Positions 6,127-42,200 of a stretch of DNA of 64,000 nt are shown in pieces. Where the stretch lies: assembly GCF_000002985.6 (NCBI RefSeq), contig NC_003283.11, positions 3,844,001 through 3,908,000 on the forward strand, written 5' to 3'. The stretch's first letter is position 1. Each line of letters opens with the position of its first letter. Made by a program: the position numbers and the translations under genes. The notes beneath the pieces were generated by a model. The model made no database searches. It saw only the letters and a program-made list of their open reading frames with translations, and had not been told where the DNA came from. The stretch is from Caenorhabditis elegans (lineage: Eukaryota; Nematoda; Chromadorea; Rhabditida; Rhabditidae).

Positions 6127-7796
6127 TTAAATAAGCCCCATAAGGCGATCAAGAACTTTGGCCTTTGAGTCATTGGAAAGTTTGGAGTATTCCTGTGAAG
6201 CCTTCAACTTCTTCGCACTCTCAACTGAATTCATCCGACGAATCGATTTTTCGAGAAGTTTCGTCATTCCATATCTGTCAGCCAACCACATCAGCATTTC
6301 ATTTCTGATTCGGGTATTATTGAGCAGATGATACTCCACGTGCCATATTGCAGACGGAAGAATAAATCGGTCCGCCATATCCAGAATCTTATACACGGTT
6401 TTATCTGCAACTGATGATATTGCAATTCATGTAGTCAAAACATAGTATAAATACCGTTTGGAAATATTGTATTCGGATAGATAGTTCCTAGAAGAAGAGC
6501 AAAGTTTTCGTAAGACACATCTTTAAGCTCAATCTCTGACATTTGACCTTCTTTGTAATTGGATGAGAATAGAGCACTGAAGTAAGTAGAGTGAAATGAA
6601 AGAAACTGAAAGTACGGTGAAAAAAAGTTTAAAAACTAGACAATAAACTATCTTACAGCTTTGTTAACATTCAACATCTTATCCCCAATAACAAGAATTG
6701 CATCGGTTTCATTTGTTGGCAAGAACATTTCGTCGTAGTTAACCTTTTCAATCGTAGTTTGGTATGGTATCAGTATTGAAACGACAGTGTGGAATTAATC
6801 AAGTTTTCCAGTGATGCTTCAACTTTCTGTACGGGATCAATTAAATCGACTTCAATTTTTATAGGTTCAAATGAAGAGTGGTCCGGATGAGAGCTAACAG
6901 TAATCAAGCCTGACAGACCATCTATTCCGCTGGCCTGCAATTCAGTCCAATCAAATGTCCATTGAACTTTGTCACCAAAACCAGACTGATTTCCTCTATC
7001 TGAAAAACATACCAATTGAATTTCCAAATTCAATTTTAAAGGAAAAAATTGTTAAAGTGAGAAAGTATTAAGTGCTAGCAGGTAAGTTTAGGTGGGTATT
7101 TCCTATTCAAGAATCCCATTCAGCACATTTCACAAGCATAAAATAATTTTTCAACACGCAAATATTTTTGACCTACTCGAATACATGTTATGAGCGTTGC
7201 CAGATGTATTGGAGCCGTTGTTAACTCGCGTCCATACACTGGAAATAATCAATACTACTGTTAGCACGTATTAGTATTGCCACTTAAATAGCTATCAAAC
7301 AATCGTTGGCCTGAAATAATCTAACAAATATCAGACTTATTACAGTTGTTAAAGTTGTTAAAGTTGCATTCAGAATTTGTTAAAACGGTTTTGGCCGGCT
7401 GGAGATTTTATTCCTTCATTGACAGAGCAGGAACGTTTTTTTTTCAATTAGGAAGAGGAAAACGAACTTCAAAAAATTTTTAATGATTAACAAATCGAAA
7501 ATACTCATCAAGCTAAAATAAATGAATGAGCGTATTGATTAAAAACAAAAAAAAACAAAAGAAATATTACATGGGTTGTTGGACTGTTGTCATCCGATTT
7601 CATTTCATTTGTAAAGGGGAAAAAAACGGAAGCCTATTTTTCGAAAGCCCCGATCTTGTCTCATTGCTTGAATCTATTTTTATCAACATTACCAGTTCAA
7701 TCCTTGTGTTAAGCTCGTGTCAATTGCATTTTGAGTATAGCTGTTAATTGTGATAAACTTGCTCTTGTATTCAATCTTACTGTTTTTGAAACTCAT
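6127..7796 (-). CDS. BTB-domain protein with a frameshift (possible pseudogene)
   Basis: Exons in transcript order: 7796-7693, 7238-7177, 6999-6657, 6605-6455, 6404-6127. All splice joins match in phase. The N-terminal half is a MATH-like strand domain (WTFDWTEL, IKIEVDLI). The C-terminal half is a BTB/POZ fold: DAILVIGDK, then NVNKA joined to FLSFHSTYFSALF, then YENFALLLGTIYPN, LDMADRF and AKVLDRLMGLI. BTB proteins of this type are commonly substrate adaptors of CUL-3 ubiquitin ligases. Oddity: inside the 343-base exon, around 6770-6775, the frame ending FQY hits TGA while the next frame continues PYQTTIEK; the exon sum (938) is not a multiple of three. A weak 80-base intron (6823-6744, GTTGAA..AAAAG) would rescue the frame but remove residues that look conserved. 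So this is either a pseudogene, a sequence error or an unusual splice. Confidence 0.72.
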
Positions 7797-8297
7797 GTTC
7801 TGAAAAATGAAAGTTAGCTTCGGAAGAAAGCTGGGGATCTTATTTTTAAATTTAATTTTTAACAAGGAGAAGTATACAAGACTCCAAAAAAAGAAAAAAA
7901 AAGAAATTGATACGTTTCTCTTATCATAATATTTAAATTGATAAGAAAGATGTACCGCCTTGTGACTTCATAACGCCAGTGAACTTTGTCAACTATAATA
8001 CTCTCAAAAGTGACTCATTTTACCAAGATTCCTATGGACTGTGTTGTAGCTACGGAATTGGCACATAACATCAAAAATTTAATGCGAAAAAGTTTAAACG
8101 TTAAAAAATCACTGATCTTCATCCTTGCCAGTGAGCCAGTACGTTATAAAGCGCTCTAGTTATCAACAAGTTTGAAAAGTTGTGCTATGTTATTAAGTCA
8201 TTTTCGCACCTTTTTATGTTTTTTGAGCCAAAGTTGGGCAATAAACTTGGGCAAAAATGTTCAATTTCACAAAAAAACTAAAAAAGAAATAAACACT
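7797..8297. other. Intergenic between BTB gene promoter and NHR-2 3' end
   Basis: AT-rich, no gene seen. It contains the upstream side of the BTB gene and the 3' side of NHR-2, which are co-oriented. Confidence 0.5.
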
Positions 8298-10947
8298 TTA
8301 TATAAGATGCACAACATCTACAAACAATTTTTTGTACTCTATAAACGGCATTTGTAGTTTGAAAAGAGATGTGAGATACGTGACGTCTTCCACCGTCTTG
8401 TTGACCACGTGGCAAATTGACAAGAGATCTGCGAATCGAGATGGCCCAGTTTGTTGATATGTTGATAGGCACAGTTGCAGAAGTGCCGAGCTATACACTT
8501 TTTGACGAGCGCTCAACGTTTTCTTTGTTTCGTCAGACAGTGGATGTAAGGCTGAAAAAAACAAATTATTTTATACTAATAAGACATAATTAACTAACCG
8601 GAATTACAAAATAATATCAAATTGAGGAGCATGTGCTCTTCACTGCTCACTTTCAGCTCTCTAAACCGAGTTGCCAACCGGCTGCGGATGTTGTTGAGAA
8701 AATCCAACGAGAACATTTGGAGCCTGTAATATATCATTTTCAGTTTATAGGAATTTGAGTAGTTGTTAAGCAAGTTTGAAAAGTCAACCCTAAAAAATTT
8801 TTCAAAAGGGTGCAGCCGACACTGATCAAGGTTTGCGATATCTAATAAACTATATAAAAACTTACAATCGATCCGGGTAAACATCCTTCCCGTCTGGAGT
8901 CATAACTCTGTCGGTTTTGTTCAAAATCGCCCTCATTGCACTATTTAACACCAAGGTTTTCAGTGAGAACTCTCGTAGAAGCACAATCTGAAATGTTTCA
9001 ATTTCACTCATTTTGCAAATTAATTTTCAAAATAACCTTATCTTCGTTGTCGATATTCTGCATAAAGTCAAGATTCAGAAACATTTCCACAGATACGTAA
9101 ATCGTTAGAAAACTCCATTCATGGATGTTCACCTCCTGCGTCGCTTTTTTAAGCACCATACGTGACCCTTTGCTCCTTGTGACCATTTGTCTTAGAGTTG
9201 GATTTTCAGATGTGTAAAAGTTCAGGATTTTATGACTTCTTCTTGCATCCATGAGAACCAGTTCTTGAAGCAGTGTATTCAGTTTTCCATCCACTTGGTT
9301 CACGAGTTCCAAGTCTGGTTTTCCTGGAGCTATATATCTCATGCCGAGGTCAATACAACGCCGATATCGGCATGCTCGGCATCGCGTGGAGACATTATTG
9401 GCTGGAAAATGAAAACTGAAATGATAATAGATTTGAATTTTTTCAGATTTTAATATTTGCGACCGGCATTTACCGAGTTTCGATTGAAATTTGAATTAAA
9501 CATTTTCTGAATAAAGACGTTTGGCGGGAAGTTCAAGTTTTTTTAGGAAACTATATTGGCGGCAATTTTAAATTTTCCGTTTAAATCATTTTGACCAGAA
9601 ATTCAAGTTTTTTGAATCAAAAATTTTGCGGAAATTTAAATTTTCTGAGAAAATGTTAAGAGGAAATTGAATTTTTGAGAAAAATTTAGCGGAAGTCTAA
9701 ATTTTCTGGGAATAAAATTTTTCTGAAGTTCAAATTTTCTGAGAAAACTAGGCAATGTCAAACTAAAATTTAATGACACCAAAAATTTCAAATTTACGCC
9801 AAAACTTTTTAAAAATTAAAAATGCAATTTACCAACAAATTTACTAGTGAAATTAAACAATTGAATTTTATTCGCCAAAATTTGCTTCACATTTAAAAAT
9901 TGAAATTTTCTTTTCAACCCAGTCTGTACATTTCCAGACTTTTTCCTGTCGCCCTCTACAGGCTCCTTCAAAAGGTTAAACAATGTATCCTTACCGTCAA
10001 CATACTCTTGTCCATCGTAGCACGTGTTCCAATATTTGCAGTTATACGTGATGTGGTCTACCTCCACCCGGCGGAAGAACATTTTGCACGCATTACACGA
10101 GAGAACCTGCAAATCAAAAAATTTCATGGTTTGTAGTAGTGGGAATTTGTAGGAATTTTGTTCCAGGTTGCTAGATTTTGCAATTTTTGAGCTTTTAAAA
10201 ATGATTTATCAATGAGATCAAAAAGTTTTTATTTTTAAAATGTGTTTAAAATTATCGGTTTTGTTTTGCCAATAAATAGTATTAAAAAAAAAACTAATAG
10301 AGTTACAATTACGTGCTCTGTTCGCACAGCTTTCAAAAGAGCGAAGTACAAGCTTCAGTCATTATTTGCTACTTCCGCCGGCAGCGCAGACAGAAAAAGA
10401 AGTGCAAGACAGAGATGTCTAGAGAGTTGAAATATCAATAAGTTCAAACAAGAATGCGTAGAATTTTTTTTTCAAAAATATATGGGCTTTTAAAAATTTT
10501 GTTAGGAATTTTTAAACTGATATTTGAACTCTTGCTAAATTTTTGAAATTGACAATTATCGAATTGAAAAAATTTTTGAAAATTGGAAATTGCGGAAAAT
10601 ACCAAAAATGAAAAACGGGCAAAGTGACAAATATGCCGATAATTTAAAAAACCTTAAATAGAATTTGCCAAACTATCGAGTTACCGAAACTTTTAATTGC
10701 CGCCCGACATTCCCCGGGTTGCGCCGCTCTCCGTACATACGTGTATTTGGCTGACCCAGTAGATGTCAGGCGCTGATTTTAAATAGAAAACTTTCAAAAA
10801 AAGTTGACTTACCCCATAATTGTAGCAGAACGCCGGTTTTCCACAAACCGCACATTTTTCCGACACACTCACGGCACTGGTTTCCGGCTCCATATCCGTC
10901 GGCAAATAGTCCGAGCCACACGAGTCAGGCGAAGGGTTGGCAGACAT
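8298..10947 (-). CDS. Nuclear hormone receptor NHR-2 (370 aa)
   Basis: Exons in transcript order: 10947-10813, 10106-9995, 9401-9037, 8987-8866, 8723-8599, 8551-8298; phases agree and give 370 aa. The zinc-finger DNA-binding domain runs from CAVCGKPAFCYNYG through LSCNACKMFFRR to CRACRYRRC and a GM. The spacer between the second and third cysteines of finger two is long (about 15 residues). The ligand-binding domain shows WSFLTIYVSVEMF, RAILNKTDRV, LILFCN and a C-terminal exon beginning ALHPLSDE. Exon lengths 254/125/122 at the 3' end are the same as in NHR-3 and NHR-4, which marks a local duplication series. Intron 1 carries a dispersed palindrome and intron 2 low-complexity repeats. A GATA word lies about 80 bases upstream. 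Confidence 0.9.
9480..9800. repeat. Low-complexity AAATTTTCTGAG-type repeat in NHR-2 intron 2
   Basis: Degenerate repetition of phrases like AAATTTTCTGAGAAAA and TTGAATTTTTGAG, with no open reading frame of note. Confidence 0.5.
10695..10775. repeat. ATGTCGG-type palindrome in NHR-2 intron 1
   Basis: CCCGACATTCCCCGGGTTGCGCCG on one arm faces CTGACCCAGTAGATGTCAGGCGC on the other. Same family as the copies at 1141-1310 and 46330-46470. Confidence 0.5.
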
Positions 10948-34323: not shown

Positions 34324-35496
34324 GATTAAACTATAACCAGAAAATTGTGCACAAATCAGCCGATCAACAAGCAGTGGAGAATGAAGAAGTGAGAGAGGAG
34401 GGAGGGGCGGTACTTATCAGGAATAACAATTCCCAGAACGCCTTAATTTGTGAAGTCAAATTTGAAAACTTGATCCTACAAATTGGAGAAAAAGCTCCAA
34501 AACCTTGATATAACTAAAAAAAACTGATTGAATCTATTTTCTTATGATGTATCCAGCAACTTTATTCCGCAAACCCATCTCTGAAGAAAAATTAATTTGG
34601 TAAAAATTATTTTTTTAAAAATGGAAAAAATTAAGAATTTAGTGCTAAAATGATCAAATATTATGGTAAAATTTTTCAAGAGCAATTTGAAAAAAAAAAT
34701 TTCACAGTTAAAAATATTACGACAATTACTCAGTTTCCACCTGCCATCATTTTGGAAGTCGATTTTTTTTGTTGCAACTTTCAGCGTGAACCAAGCCATT
34801 TTCCCACGCTAGGCTTATAATTTGGAGCGATTTTACAGGCATTTAAAGTATTGTAAAAATACACTGATAGCAAATTCAGATCTGCTTTTTCTAGTTTGAA
34901 ATGCTCGGTATATGTGAGATACCTATAAAAATGTAAGAATATTTACATTAGTTGGTGATAATTTGAAAAAAAAAATTATTCCGTAACTTGTTATTAGTAT
35001 GGCTGAGTTCAACCGATCATGGCTTCTATTAAAAATAATTGCACTCTTGATCTCCGCTAAATTTCTGACAAAACGATTAGATTAAAAAGTGTCACAAAAT
35101 TAATGTGGTTTATGTTCCTGGTCGAGATTATTCACCGAGATATGCTGACGTGCTCAAAAAATACAATTGGGATTTTATATTTCACTTGTATTAGAGTAAG
35201 ACATTTTTTGCGGAAGAGTTAAAAAGACATTTATATTAAGATTTAGATTTGAGATTTGCAAATATCACAATTTTGGACGAACTTGGCAAATTGCTACTTC
35301 TGGAGCGCAATCGGCTGGATGTGATTTGCGCCTTATCCGCGTACCAGGAACAACAATATGTCACATTGCAACACAAAATAATTACACATTTAAATAACTA
35401 GAAAGTTCTACAAAAATGGTTCGCTGGAAAAAAAAAGTTTCTGATAGTTTTGTAAGAATTGATTCATAAAAATGCTCCATATTCCACAATCATTCC
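34324..35496. other. Intergenic: NHR-8 upstream region
   Basis: No gene seen. The segment 34540-34800 repeats interior words of the TTAA element (CTCAGTTTCCACCTGCC, TGGAAGTCGATTTTTTTTG). The rest is AT-rich. Confidence 0.45.
34412..34420. promoter_or_regulatory. Possible GATA-factor site upstream of NHR-8
   Basis: ACTTATCAG matches the extended TTATCAG core used by intestinal GATA factors such as ELT-2, about 90 bases upstream of the NHR-8 start. Motif match only. Confidence 0.3.
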
Positions 35497-35769
35497 CTAT
35501 TTCCTATTCTCAAGCCTTCTCATACTGCAAGACTCAGCGAGAACTTTCGGGATGTAGATATTGAAACCAAGCTCTCGCAGGGCAGTATTCATTCTTCTAG
35601 TCGTATATCGTTGCCTATCCATATGTTGATTGATAAAAAATAATGTCAGCAAATCTGGCGGGTCCTGTCTTAGAATTGGAGCACATACACTGCTGAAACA
35701 GCATGTTTGCAAACATCCTTTGGCATCGGGATAGAGTTTCTTGACCCCCTGGTGAAAGGCCTCCGATTG
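35497..35769 (-). pseudogene. Stand-alone NHR terminal exon, frameshifted
   Basis: After a TTTCCAG acceptor the frame reads AIGGLSPGGQETLSR and continues to RFADII, then runs into a stop (TATGGATAG). Moving one base at a run of six T, the next frame continues INQHMDRQRYTTRRMNTALR to a stop at 35497. It is colinear with the last exon of NHR-9 (AIQGMSPSGQDLLSR, then INQRLDRQ). No upstream NHR exons lie between it and the intact copy at 36868-37136. Best read as a decayed duplicate exon; the shift is one extra T in a homopolymer. Confidence 0.7.
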
Positions 35770-36034
35770 CTGGAAATATTTGTTGGATTATGAATTATTG
35801 AAACAACTGGATTTTTGGTCATCTAATAATAACAGAAATAGTAATCTAAAAGATAAACTTTCATGCCCGATTTCAGTTTTATCATATGTATTATTAAGAG
35901 ATTAAATTGTATCTAGCAATGGTCTTGATCTTGTGAACTTGCAGATTAGATACATTGTGTCGTAATTTTGCAAGAATTTGACATGCCAGTTTAAAGGCAC
36001 ACAATGTTTTTGGAGTGGGTCTCGCAACTTCTCT

Positions 36035-36240
36035 GTAAAAAATTTTCGGGCGGCAAATCGGAAAATCGGCAAATTGCCGGAATTGAAAAATTCTTGGAAA
36101 TCGGCAAACCGGTAAATTACCGATGTGGTTTTGCACATTTTTTAAATAAAATTTCAGAATTTCAATTTTAATCAGCAAAATTGTTCCTCTGAATGTTCCT
36201 ACATCTTTTTTTAAAAAAGTCTGTAATGTGAAAATTTTCG
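36035..36240. repeat. GGCAAATCGG-family repeat
   Basis: Phrases CGGCAAATCGGAAAATCGGC and TTGCCGGAATTGAAAAATTC; same family as 15105-15240 and 39670-39840. Confidence 0.6.
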
Positions 36241-36818
36241 GCAACGCGGCAATTTTCTACAGTAGTCTTATAACAACATCAAAGGTTAAAAATTATATAA
36301 TTTTTTAAATTTTTTCATGATTTTTTAATTATGCAAAACAAAACTGAAAGAGGCAAACTTATTTCTGAATTTCCGCGCAAATGAGATGAATTACATGAGA
36401 TTTGTGTTATTTTGGGAAAAAACACAACAAACGCTACTCCACTTCTAAAAGGAAATATTTTGAGCCAATTATTATTTAATGGATTTTTTAGTTTATTACC
36501 TGTCAATTCTAACACATACATATCACTACTTCAACTAGGGTAATTCTTTAAAAATTTGATAGTCTGATTTTTTCAGTCACCATACTTCAACTACAACGTG
36601 CCCTCGACTAGAAAATGTGCACTTCAAACCTACACACACTTTCGTTATAGAATGATCACACTAATATTCACACCCATAATACACCCAGACAACATTTATC
36701 ACCCTCTACAAAAACATTCTGGTCTAAGATTTTTGGTGGCTAGACGAAAATAACACCACAAAATCTGTGACTGACTATTAATAATAGGAAGTCATGATTT
36801 GTTTGTTGTTCAAGGGAT

Positions 36819-36824
36819 TTTATT
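36819..36824 (-). terminator. Polyadenylation signal AATAAA after the intact orphan exon
   Basis: Minus-strand AATAAA 44 bases past the stop at 36868. Confidence 0.5.
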
Positions 36825-36867
36825 ATTAATGCATAAAAATGAGTAAATAAAATTCACAGCAAGAAAC

Positions 36868-37136
36868 CTAAAAAAGCTTCCTCTCGAGCTTGCACGATTC
36901 CACCAAAATTCTCGGGATATAAAAGAATGGATTCCAGTGTCGTTTTGACACGGAAAAAAATTGTTGAGTAATGTAAATTTGTTTGTTCAAGTGATTGCTG
37001 ATCGCCAATAGTTCCAGTAATCTGCCGGGTCCTTTACTGGAATAGTGAAGCAGGCATTGCTGGAGAAGAAGTTGCACGCATTTTTGACGGTTTTCAGATA
37101 TGATTTCGCGGCCTCTTGGCGAGAGTCCGTCGATGT
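36868..37136 (-). CDS. Stand-alone NHR terminal exon, intact (alternative last exon of NHR-9 or gene fragment)
   Basis: After a TTTTCTAG acceptor an 89-codon open frame reads IDGLSPRGREIISENRQ, LLLQQCLLHYSSKGPGR and ends LVESCKLERKLF before the stop at 36868. It is homologous along its length to the last exon of NHR-9 (38074-38339) and has the same entry phase (two bases complete a codon begun by a G). An AATAAA follows about 45 bases downstream. No DNA-binding domain or earlier ligand-binding exons are present nearby. Either NHR-9 transcripts can skip to this exon, giving a different ligand-binding-domain C-terminus, or it is an orphan left by an incomplete duplication. Confidence 0.6.
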
Positions 37137-38073
37137 CTAGAAAATGGAATAGAAATCACTTTTTTAAAATTTTATTCTAAAACAAAAAATTCACTTGAAA
37201 ATGCGCTTTTTTTTCAATTTTTTATTGCTGAAAAGTTGATTATTCGTAAATTTATTCAAAGGTTACAATGTTTGATTATTAATATTTAAGACAAAGGTAG
37301 ACCGTAAATTTTGAGATTTGGAACTTTTTAAGAGAATTGGAACTTCGAACTTTATTCGTTGCGCAGCTTTTATCAATTGTGCAAAAACTTGAATAAAACA
37401 ATAAAAACACAAAAGTTTCGTGCAAATTGTGAAAAAAAAAACTTTCAAAAACCGATTTTATATAATTCCACAGCCACCGAGTTTGAAATTACAGTACTCA
37501 ATAAAGTCATACCTTTTTACAGTAAAAAAATTGTCGATTCGATACCAGGTAATGTTTTTTTGGCGCAATTGCGTCGGCTTAAATTATTGTTTTGTACTGC
37601 AAAGCACGAGACTCCTAATCCAAAGAAATTGTCTACAAAATCACTATTTTTTTGTTTGTGTTTTTGCCCCATTTTTATTCGGACAATTTTTATTTTTTAT
37701 TTTTTTCATCAATTCACCAAAAGTTACAAAAATTACATCTTTCTAGGCTAATAAAATTTTATACTGATGCTTTATGAAAGAGCGTTAAAATTGCAATTTA
37801 AATTGAGCTTGTTTCGATTTTTCATATTGCAAGTGATGCATATATGCAAATTGTGTCTATTTTTTTCAAAGTATACTTCTACTGCTTTGCAATTAGTCTA
37901 TTCAAAAATATGTTACTGAAATCATGCACACGTGACACTACATCTAGATAAATTGGAAAAAATAAACATGCAAAAAACTTTAAACTCTAAAAAAAACCCC
38001 ATACAAGTGTTATAAATTTTATTATTGCTCAGAAAATGTACAGAAAAATTGAAAAAAATAACTAAAAAAACCA
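37137..38073. other. Interval between the orphan exon and NHR-9
   Basis: AT-rich, no relics of earlier NHR exons seen on the minus strand. A 130-codon plus-strand ORF (37359-37751) has no family resemblance and is rich in low-complexity K/F/N/I. Confidence 0.45.
38018..38023 (-). terminator. Polyadenylation signal AATAAA of NHR-9
   Basis: Minus-strand AATAAA about 50 bases past the NHR-9 stop. Confidence 0.5.
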
Positions 38074-41000
38074 CTAATAATAAACATCCGACCTGCAGGC
38101 TTCAGTCAATATTTTTGAGAAAAAGAAGTTCGGAGCCCAATACTCCCGGAGGCATTGTACCACCCTATTCGTAATGACACTTTGTCTATCGAGCCGTTGA
38201 TTGATAGCCAGAATGGCTGCGTACCGACCGGGTCCGGTTCTCGGGTTTGACACCATACACATCTGAAGCAGAATCCTTGCGTAGACTTGTTGATGGCGAG
38301 AGAGAAGGTCTTGACCGCTTGGAGACATCCCTTGGATTGCTGGAACGGACAAGTTCACGAGACTCGCACAAAAATACAAATTATTATAGAAAAGAGGGGT
38401 GTTATTGGTCAGAAGTTATGAAATTGTTTGGTATTTTTGATATTTGGGTGGAGGTGGTGCTCACCAAAAATCAGAGACCAGAATGTTTTCGTAGAAAGTG
38501 CAAAATTTCTGCTTGCTCACCTGGATTACAAATCACTATCATATTCAGCAGCAGGTACTCGCTCTCGGTGATTTGTAGCTCCATTAGTGGTTTCATCGGC
38601 GACGTCAGCAGGTCCATGATTATTTCTCGACACTTTGGAATCTCGAAAAGTACATCTGGAAACATTTCGGTGCCCGTTGGCGCCAAAACTCGACCCTTCT
38701 TCTGGATGAACGAGTCATAGGCCACTGAAAGGTGATGGCTTTTGAAGGCGACATTTTTTAGGAGCAGCACCTGAAAATTTCCAAGTTATTGTAATATTCG
38801 GTGTTCGAAAAATTGGTAAAAATACCCTATCTGAAAGTAGAAGATCGTTGTAGAAACTAAGTCCCTTACAAACTTCTACAGCGAGTAAAACTCCCAGCGA
38901 GCCCCAAGGCTTCAGTTTTCGCTCTGTGTTCTCCCATTCGATTTCTTGCTGAAAGTATAAAATGATATGAAATATCGAAATTTGAAGAGAGAGTTCAGAA
39001 TAAAAACTTTTCAAAATTATTTTGAAATAATTTTTTTTACAGTCAAAAAGTGGCAAAAACTGAGATTTTCCAATTTTCAAAGAATCATACAGAATTCACT
39101 TTTTTTTTGGAATTTTCTACTACAATATTTGGTCACTGTCTTTAAATGTCTTCAAATAAAAATTCATATAGCTCTAACTTACCGGTCTCAAGTACACTGA
39201 AAGCTTTGAGCCCTGAGCAACCAGGTCACAAAAACTGGGATCTTCACAAATATTAATGACACAGTAAGCATTATATCGGGTCTCATTCAAAGCATGAAGG
39301 TGTTGGAAAAACGTCGAATCGATGTGCGCCTGTGTGATTATATGTTGTGGGACTACGGCGACGACGGATTGTTTAGGAGATGGTTCCTCGTCGGACTGGG
39401 TTTGCGATTCGGAGGAGTTGTGATAGCGCATGCCGAGGTTCACGCATTTTTTGTATCGACATGATCGGCATTTTGGACGGGATGCTGGAAAATTATGTGA
39501 AAATTATAAAACAATTTTGTACTTTCTTCACAACTGTATTTTCAATATTACATTGTTTTTTTCGTATTTTTAATAGATTTTATTCTGTCTTATTCAAATT
39601 GCTGGATACCAGATCTTTTGAGGCTTGGAAAAAATGGAACGGATATTTCCGTCTTATGAAAATTCCATCTAAAACTTCCGGCAAAATAATGTTCGGCAAA
39701 CGGCAAATCGGCAATTTGCCAAAAATCAAAATCTCCGGCAAATTTGCTAATTGCCGGAATTGATAATTTCTGGCAAATCGGAAACCGGTAATTTGTCGAT
39801 TTGCCGAATTTGTCAACAAAAAAATTGCCGAACGACAACCACTGGTTTGAACATTAAATTTGAATTTTTTTTGAAAAGCTTTACTATGATATTTGGTCAC
39901 TTTGGCACTATATGATTAGGTTTTAACAATATCCCCGCTTCCGCGCGCTTTGGCTATTCCACCTTAAGCTCCGCTCTCAATTTTAAAACCAGCTAATGTA
40001 CTTCGGCTTTTTCTTCCCATATCACACATCACGTACACCACATATCACATCTAATATTTGCTTCCATCTGCTTCTGACTTGCCGGAAAACCCCAAGTTCT
40101 GTTCTGAATCAAAAAGTTCACCTGCAAATCAACTACAAAACACCAAAATGTTCTGTCTGCGCGCATGGCAGCATGTGCGAAGCATAATCTTTTATAAAGT
40201 AGAGTCTAGATATTCAGAGCGTGATCTCCGATTGGCATACTTCCGTGTGCTCAACCTAAACTCTTTTTTTGAAAGTGTAGGAAGATCAATCAAACCACCT
40301 TGAAGGTGGCGTGTCCGTGGGAAAATACATTAAAAAATTTGGACATTTTTTTGGCTGGGAAATCGCTTAAAACCAAATATCATAATTTGTTCCCACATTT
40401 TTAAAATACTCTTATTTAGAGAAAAATTTTCAATTGCCGCTCCCTGGCAGTAATTACGTATTAGTTTTTTCTGCTTCAAATTGAATGAACTGCTCATTTT
40501 TTTGTTGAAAATGGCAACTTTTGACTGAATTTTTTTTGAAAAAACCTCCAAACTCTTTGCCATTCTGGCATGCTAGAAAAACTTGGAAAAAACACAATCA
40601 AAAATTTCCAAAAAATTTTTTTGTGCTGAATACCCTACTTGCGACAGTTCACTTTTGAGCTCAACGGCTCCATACATAGATTCGCATCACTTTTTAATTT
40701 ACTAATTATCATCTTCTGACTGATTTGATTTCCGGTTTATACGAAAAGAAAAACGCACTAACGTGTCTACGCACACCGTCTGCCCAGACTGATCATACGA
40801 AAATTCGGAGATGTGCAGAACGGGAAAACAACTTTTCTATGACTAGAGAATTTCAGTCACAAACTCCGGATTTAGAGATAATAAGACATTTCGAAAAAAG
40901 TTATTTCTCTAATCCTGCTTCTTCCCACATAAAACATGTTTTGATGGAGTTGTTCATGAGCGCAAAGGTGTGTGTTTTCCGTGTACAATGATCACGACAA

Positions 41001-42200
41001 AATTAAAAATTGTATTAACAGAAAATAAGGTTAAGGGTGATATATTTTTGACATATCAGACATAAGTTTCATTACTCAAATTTTCAAAGAATTAAAACAT
41101 CACTGAAACAGAAAAAAACTGATGTGTCGTTTTTCTGGTTAAGCCTATTGACGCCTAACAGTTGTGGTGATATTAATATGATTGTCAGTGAGAAATAATC
41201 GACAGATAAGTTTAATCCATGTATGAACATACATAACTAAATAGTTTTGAGCATAAAATAAGTCGCATTCACGGTTTGGCCCCCAAGAGTTAGGAAAATA
41301 AAATTTTGAAAAAAATTTTGAATTTCCGTAATTTCTGGATAAATAGTGTCGTCAAACAATTTCAGATTTTTTGCTTTTTTTCAGCAATAATTGAAAAGTC
41401 GAAAGTTCGAAAACTAAAATATTTCTATTTTCCGATTTACCGGAAAATTGAAAAATCAAAAAAAGAGCAAAAAGAAAACAGTTAATTTTCTTCTAAAAAG
41501 TGGAAAACTAACCTACTTTTCTAAACCATTTTTTTTAGAAAAATCACATTTTTTGATATATAGGAAAACTGAAAATCGAAAAAAATTGTTCGATTTTCTG
41601 TAACATCGAAAATCGAAGAAAAATTAACACGAAATTACAATATTTATCGAATTTTTTAAATTATTTTTTAATTAACAAAAAAACATAATAAAACGTATAA
41701 TCCTATCATAAAAACAAGAAAAAATGACAAAATTTTAAGCTATTTTTTGAAAAATTGAAACTAAAATTTTGACTATCGGATTGTAGGAAAAAAATCAACC
41801 AAGCTTTACAAACATGGTGCATCGTTAAAAAACTGAATTCACAAAAATTAACAAACTCACTTAACAAGTCATCACCATCGAAGCATTTTCCGCCCTTTTT
41901 GCAAAAATCGTCAATTTTCTCGGCGTGTGCTCTCCGGAAGAACATTTTGCACGCGTTACAGGACACCACCTGAAACAGATTACAATTCAATAAAAACTGT
42001 ATTCCAGCTGCTGCTGCTGCCACATAGAAAAGTTGATGAAAACTAAGATTGCATCGAAATTTCGTTATTTTACAGAATATGTGATCTACCATAAATAAAT
42101 GTTGAATTACTAGCATTACCTCATAATTGTAGCCGAAAGCTTTTTGGTGACAAATGGCGCAAATGTTGGGGCGATCCGAAGATATTGTGGTGCCGGACAT
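38074..42200 (-). CDS. Nuclear hormone receptor NHR-9 (376 aa)
   Basis: Exons in transcript order: 42200-42120, 41969-41861, 39484-39183, 38948-38826, 38770-38521, 38339-38074; 376 aa. DNA-binding domain: CAICHQKAFGYNYE, VSCNACKMFFRR, then CRSCRYKKC and GM. The Gly usual before the first intron (NYG) is Glu here. Intron 2 is 2,376 bases and its donor is ambiguous: GTGAGT at 41860 (preferred) or GTGATG nearer the cysteine; both keep phase and change the finger spacer (12 versus 7 residues). The ligand-binding domain is divergent from the other eight: WGSLGVLLAVEV, TGTEMFPDVLFE, LLNMIVICNPG and AIQGMSPSGQDLL. Downstream lie two further copies of its last exon. Confidence 0.87.
39670..39840. repeat. 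GGCAAATCGG-family repeat in NHR-9 intron 2
   Basis: Includes CGGCAAACGGCAAATCGGCA, TTGCCGGAATTG and GCCGATTTGCCG-type inverse words (39775-39810). Confidence 0.6.
39870..39967. repeat. Partial TTAA element in NHR-9 intron 2
   Basis: Carries TGATATTTGGTCACTTTGGC and ends CTATTCCACCTTAA, the right end of the element seen complete at 31604-31929. Confidence 0.5.

Follow-up and report, generated by a model that had tools for sequence, protein, structure and literature searches.

A minus-strand nuclear receptor gene of the HNF4-like type, located in a 64,000-nucleotide stretch of Caenorhabditis elegans chromosome V (hereafter the window; C5:3844001-3908000 in the whole-genome searches, which covered 100,286,401 bases in 7 contigs), is followed downstream by two additional homologues of its own terminal exon. 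On balance, the sequence favors a single receptor gene with tandem-duplicated alternative last exons, in which both the proximal and the middle copies could be joined to exon 5, and in which the distal copy would have lost its reading frame recently. According to this model, the DNA-binding domain and the beginning of the ligand-binding domain (LBD) would come from exons 1-5, and the phase-1 donor of exon 5 could be spliced to the proximal exon at 38339 or, alternatively, to the middle exon at 37136, thereby skipping the proximal exon together with its poly(A) site. Two receptors would thus be produced, sharing the same DNA binding but differing from helix 9 to the end, i.e., over the dimer face and part of the pocket, and both carrying a motif similar to activation function 2 (AF-2), while the distal exon would formerly have been a third such tail. 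We infer that the splice to 37136 would be made today and that it would affect the choice of ligand or partner.

Three homologous terminal exons downstream of one gene body

The proximal terminal exon (38074..38339) covers the region from after helix 8 to the end of the protein and is intact, as is the middle one (36868..37136), which contains no in-frame Met; the distal one (35497..35769) bears a single frameshift. Like all features of the gene described below, the three exons lie on the minus strand. Each of them is preceded by an AG acceptor and entered in the same phase. Searches within the window give 35% identity between the proximal and middle copies (E 1e-12) and 55% over 44 amino acids between the proximal and distal copies (E 2e-13), the corresponding homology being recovered in the whole-genome search with E values of 2.6e-14 and 2.8e-9. 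As judged from these searches, the similarity is beyond chance, in agreement with the first-pass annotation of this DNA, which had described three homologous, phase-compatible terminal exons. In a multiple alignment, identity reaches 45% (39/86) for the proximal-distal pair, 33% (29/88) for the proximal-middle pair and 33% (29/87) for the middle-distal pair, and these low values indicate that the copies are old.

Joining exons 1-5 to the proximal exon yields a frame of 376 codons with a single stop at its end, and joining them to the middle exon yields 377 codons followed by a stop; the exon ends of these joined models were picked by eye from the sequence. With the distal exon, a first stop already appears at codon 340, due to a break at the T6 run at 35640-35635, on both sides of which the exon is open, in two different frames. 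An AATAAA signal starts 51 nt after the proximal stop (38018..38023) and another one 44 nt after the middle stop (36819..36824), and none of the seven poly(A) hexamers tested occurs within 200 nt of the distal stop. The earlier descriptions of the middle copy as intact with its own AATAAA, and of the distal copy as frameshifted, are therefore both borne out. That the distal copy carries one lesion alone suggests a recent death. At the sequence level, the arrangement corresponds to that of tandem-duplicated exon substitutions, namely homologous neighbours with the same phase and an open frame in the proximal and middle exons, the distal one sharing the phase only.

The common entry phase had also been put forward as an argument for alternative splicing. 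The phase is indeed shared, but this is a trait of the family: of 25 other terminal exons, 22 have a clean acceptor at this very phase-1 junction, in a count where phase-1 acceptors alone were sought and where three of the choices made (L036, L040, and L041) are uncertain. Since this junction is ordinary for the family, the shared phase is weak evidence, and its use as strong support was dropped.

The receptor body and the limits of a possible tail exchange

The gene body has the organization of a supplementary (HNF4-like) nuclear receptor, with C4 zinc-finger exons followed by a Hormone_recep LBD. Exon 1 (42120..42200, splice ends set by eye) provides the start codon and the first half of zinc finger 1, exon 2 (41861..41969) the second half of this finger onward, and exon 3 (39183..39484) zinc finger 2, the hinge, and the start of the LBD, the frame being checked across the joined exons. 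Exon 4 (38826..38948), which belongs to the LBD, and the penultimate exon 5 (38521..38770) share 76% and 60% identity, respectively, with a paralog on chromosome II (C2:3880245-3882099, LBD part C2:3881349-3882096). Exon 5 ends at 38521 with a phase-1 donor (AATCCAG/GTGAGC). When exons 4-5 are combined with either tail, the PF00104 score is slightly better with the middle one (50.5 bits) than with the proximal one (46.1 bits), the cut-off being 23.5. Besides, a search of solved structures, made by sequence only and with the middle tail in the query, gave HNF4-alpha (1m7w, E 1.2e-7) as the closest LBD match. When a profile of the terminal exons themselves was compared with solved structures, two weak matches were obtained, both to unrelated proteins. 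Similar TTGCCGATTTGCCG-type stretches were seen by eye in intron 2 (39850-39690) and in the middle-distal spacer (36120-36050), and likely represent a dispersed repeat.

The exon junction falls at NPD..GLS in the alignment to HNF4-alpha, which extends as far as residue 175 of the 213 in the query and stops short of helix 12. The helix preceding the junction is helix 8, the terminal exon beginning in the loop that follows it, and a swap of tails would then exchange helices 9-12. All three copies moreover contain a short motif (ILTEAC, ILVESC, or VLAESC, with ILVESC near the end of the middle tail) which we take to fit the AF-2 core pattern. The first-pass annotation had proposed an exchange of helices 10-12 and AF-2; the C-terminal tail does differ between copies, but the difference starts earlier, after helix 8, and as the AF-2-like motif is kept in every copy, the swap would alter helices 9-11 more than the activation motif.

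Isolation and past constraint of the middle exon

As no in-frame Met is found in the open frame of the middle exon, ordinary AUG initiation would allow its translation solely once it has been spliced to exons lying upstream, where no receptor exons other than those of the present gene were found. It is very improbable that the middle exon instead forms part of another, unrecognised gene whose upstream exons are not of the receptor type. Its acceptor and its own poly(A) signal would suit such a gene, but the spacer is devoid of receptor exons, the Met is lacking, and one would have to postulate a short new first exon ending in a phase-1 donor, for which no search was made.

Consistent with the earlier statement that no receptor exons lie between the copies, no recognisable remnant of exons 1-5 was detected in the two spacers (937 and 1098 nt), where the best of the four tblastn matches at E <= 0.2 has an E value of 0.012. 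A direct-repeat search of 35000-39500 did not reveal any long duplicated flank around the exons, the longest family being of 34 nt at 74%. At the scale of the genome, exon 5 and the paralog LBD were used as queries, and the matches listed, which are lower bounds, place two receptor bodies in this subclade, namely the present gene and the chromosome II paralog; among these matches, the next-best hit to exon 5 shows 30% identity. Four terminal exons of the clade were found in the genome searches, i.e., the proximal, middle, and distal copies and that of chromosome II. In addition, a terminal-exon model built from 17 exons (proximal, middle, and chromosome II included) served to survey 36 terminal exons of related receptors, a partial set taking in 35 of the 60 listed places. 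A penultimate-type exon lies within 800 nt upstream in 34 of the 36 (one such match being weak, at 15.6 bits, and the sequence upstream of one exon being incompletely covered), and is lacking only before the middle and distal copies. Within this survey, a terminal exon without a body is thus an unusual arrangement.

Several measures bear on the history of the middle exon. Its end branch in the tree (0.82) is similar in length to the one leading to the chromosome II exon (0.69), and the relative-rate comparison gives counts of 13 v 9 and 13 v 12. No in-frame lesion was observed in it, so that by this measure it does not class as a decayed pseudogene exon, whereas the distal exon does. Assuming an indel:substitution ratio of 0.2, the probability that it would have stayed lesion-free is about 0.06 after 0.05 neutral substitutions per site and 0.003 after 0.10; when stops alone are counted, the probability of an unbroken exon is 0.48 and 0.23, respectively. 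In the light of its branch length, relative rates, and lesion-free state, the middle exon is best regarded as constrained for most of its past, current use not being implied. Taken together, the absence of a third body from the genome matches, the lack of a Met in the middle exon, its long constraint, and the absence of any other orphan among the 36 exons make alternative terminal splicing the best-supported reading, and the middle copy is probably usable.

Splice signals and points against use of the middle exon

The proposal that the exon 5 donor could reach any of the three copies has to be set against several observations that weigh against it, the first of which concerns the acceptors. 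With a matrix of 15 positions derived from 23 related acceptors (two doubtful references having been removed; reference range 4.3-15.6), the distal acceptor scores 12.3, the proximal one 7.9, and the middle one 4.0, the latter being lower than all 23 references and ranking 18th of 152 AGs when exon positions +1 to +3 are included. An intron-side rescoring over 12 positions, devised after this first result because the 15-position matrix penalises exons not beginning with C, gives 9.7 for the distal, 5.26 for the proximal, and 5.48 for the middle acceptor, which still ranks 16th of 152, with one of the 23 references lower. A strong acceptor-like TTTTCAG, recognized by motif and matrix score 91 nt upstream of the middle exon (37228..37234), outscores the middle acceptor in both cases (11.5 and 8.9) and, if used, leads to an early stop, the frame ending after four residues as read by eye. 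This weak acceptor with a stronger upstream site is the main evidence from the sequence against an efficient use of the middle exon. Furthermore, the chromosome II paralog shows a single terminal exon within the 10 kb read, the intact middle frame is compatible with a disuse that began as little as a few percent of neutral divergence ago, and broken gene pieces would be expected in tandem clusters of this kind. As for the TTTTCAG element itself, it could act as a decoy or give rise to a truncating isoform.

One explanation of these signals, which we consider improbable, is that the tails are old alternatives which this strain has ceased to use, decay of the middle exon having just set in at its acceptor. 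The weakness of this acceptor beside a stronger decoy would fit such a scenario, as would the distal copy, already frameshifted and without a poly(A) hexamer. Nevertheless, the frame, the stop, and the AATAAA of the middle exon are all intact, and the proximal acceptor is equally weak on the intron side.

Motif counts in the spacers (7 motifs in 4 regions) provide leads only. TGCATG, which we take to be a possible FOX-1/ASD-1 site, occurs twice in the proximal-middle spacer (37967..37972 and 37923..37928), a weak lead given that 13 of 500 shuffles reach two. The same spacer (38073-37137) contains eight AATAAA, a number reached by 1 of 500 shuffles, and the middle-distal spacer contains five GTGTG, reached by 2 of 500. 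Four of these GTGTG are located at 36673-36633, about 150-190 nt past the AATAAA of the middle exon, and the fifth at 36002.

The chromosome II paralog and the origin of the tails

The terminal exon of the chromosome II paralog shares 38% identity with the proximal copy and 41% with the middle one by tblastn (the multiple alignment gives 37.5% and 38.2%). All four terminal exons fall into one clade (support 100/98), within which the middle exon and that of chromosome II are sisters in the best tree (88/91). This pairing would place the duplication of the tails before that of the genes, or would fit two separate gene lineages. The order within the clade depends on few informative columns (4 v 2 v 2), and the approximately unbiased (AU) test rejects none of the alternatives, with p values of 0.31 for the three local copies together, 0.48 for proximal with distal, 0.125 for proximal with chromosome II, and 0.35 for proximal with middle.

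Separate gene lineages are at the basis of the most serious alternative, less likely in our view, that this was formerly the site of three full tandem genes, of which the second and third would recently have been stripped of exons 1-5 by deletion, their unused terminal exons staying behind as orphan remnants. Such genes do form a tandem cluster in the window, the distal copy has lost its frame, and the best tree groups the middle exon with that of chromosome II and not with its neighbour, as separate gene lineages would. This scenario nonetheless requires two independent clean deletions, both recent and both sparing the last acceptor and the frame, with none of the five exons traceable in spacers of 937 and 1098 nt; no further orphan terminal exon exists among the 36 surveyed, and the tree is indecisive, the AU test not rejecting the three local copies as a clade (p 0.31). 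One gene with alternative tails is ranked as most likely, above the recent loss of two gene bodies.

If the tails do alternate, a tentative history, on the doubtful side, would be that the ancestor of the receptor pair had two interchangeable tails, of which the chromosome II copy kept the middle type only, the chromosome V gene still choosing by splicing. Two open frames with matches to a reverse transcriptase (RVT_1) and an endonuclease (C2:3882421-3884812, i.e., 6422-8813 of locus L052) begin about 0.3 kb past the stop of the chromosome II paralog, and given this proximity, any further tails there might have been deleted or shifted away by this reverse-transcriptase element. An attempt to date the tail split relative to that of the genes, from the identities of penultimate versus last exons, was abandoned because of too few close pairs: identities are 60%/38% for the chromosome V-II pair and 80/65, 52/58, 44/41, and 44/37 for the other top pairs, 7 of 24 loci having been dropped for lack of a penultimate exon and some recovered pieces being short or wrong. 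Nonsynonymous divergence (dN) amounts to 0.32 for exon 5, 0.26 for exon 4, 0.57 for the middle-chromosome II pair, and 0.64 for the proximal-chromosome II pair, synonymous sites being saturated in all four.

The surrounding receptor cluster

The gene belongs to a minus-strand run of HNF4-like receptor genes, revealed in the window by nine matches to the zinc-finger exon 2 of the chromosome II paralog. It is the ninth receptor gene of this cluster, which probably explains the label "NHR-9" that it had first received. On the plus strand, a zinc-finger pair lies at about 62180, and the further receptor gene starting there seems to leave the window at its right end, with an LBD match at C5:3907954-3908244. 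Chromosome V is well known to carry receptor genes in tandem arrays (PMC2533025).

Significance and comparison with known systems

If the middle exon is used, one gene would combine the same DNA-binding domain with two complete tails that are about one third identical and that would cover the dimer face, part of the pocket, and the AF-2-like motif. Such a gene would be a receptor analogue of the tropomyosin tandem 3' exons and would offer a clean natural test of the role of helices 9-12 in C. elegans orphan receptors. In a family known for gene duplication, exon swapping would then represent a second route of diversification.

Among the genome matches, the nearest body is that of the chromosome II paralog, with an identical exon junction. 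HNF4 is homologous to the receptor in the LBD, the worm exon junction aligning at NPD..GLS, but the nematode genes are a lineage expansion (PMC2533025). In filarial RXRs, similarity between B. malayi and D. immitis falls off in the last exon, in the region of helix 12 (PMC2834746); these are different receptors, and tandem terminal exons do not appear in the available text of that study.

The first-pass annotation had regarded a swap of tails as unfamiliar for this kind of receptor, a view that does not hold for nuclear receptors at large, since GR-alpha and GR-beta exchange the ligand-binding tail near the 3' end of the gene (PMC8036319). GR-beta, however, ends in a 15-residue non-homologous tail without helix 12 (PMC8036319), whereas both worm tails are homologous, full-length, and equipped with an AF-2-like motif, and hence are not truncated tails of the GR-beta type. 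Tandem-duplicated exon substitutions constitute a described class, 77 of 236 human events swapping C-termini, and tandem-duplicated 3' exons are reported for C. elegans lev-11, where they are triple, human TPM1, and Drosophila Tm1 (PMC9741552). These tropomyosin genes have annotated use, whereas use at the receptor locus is predicted from sequence and one copy is broken. The term "nuclear receptor" is absent from the main text of PMC9741552, and no nuclear receptor with mutually exclusive or tandem duplicated exons was found in listings of the open-licence literature. A receptor with duplicated, complete, and homologous LBD tails would accordingly be a new combination of two features already known separately, namely tail swaps and duplicated 3' exons.

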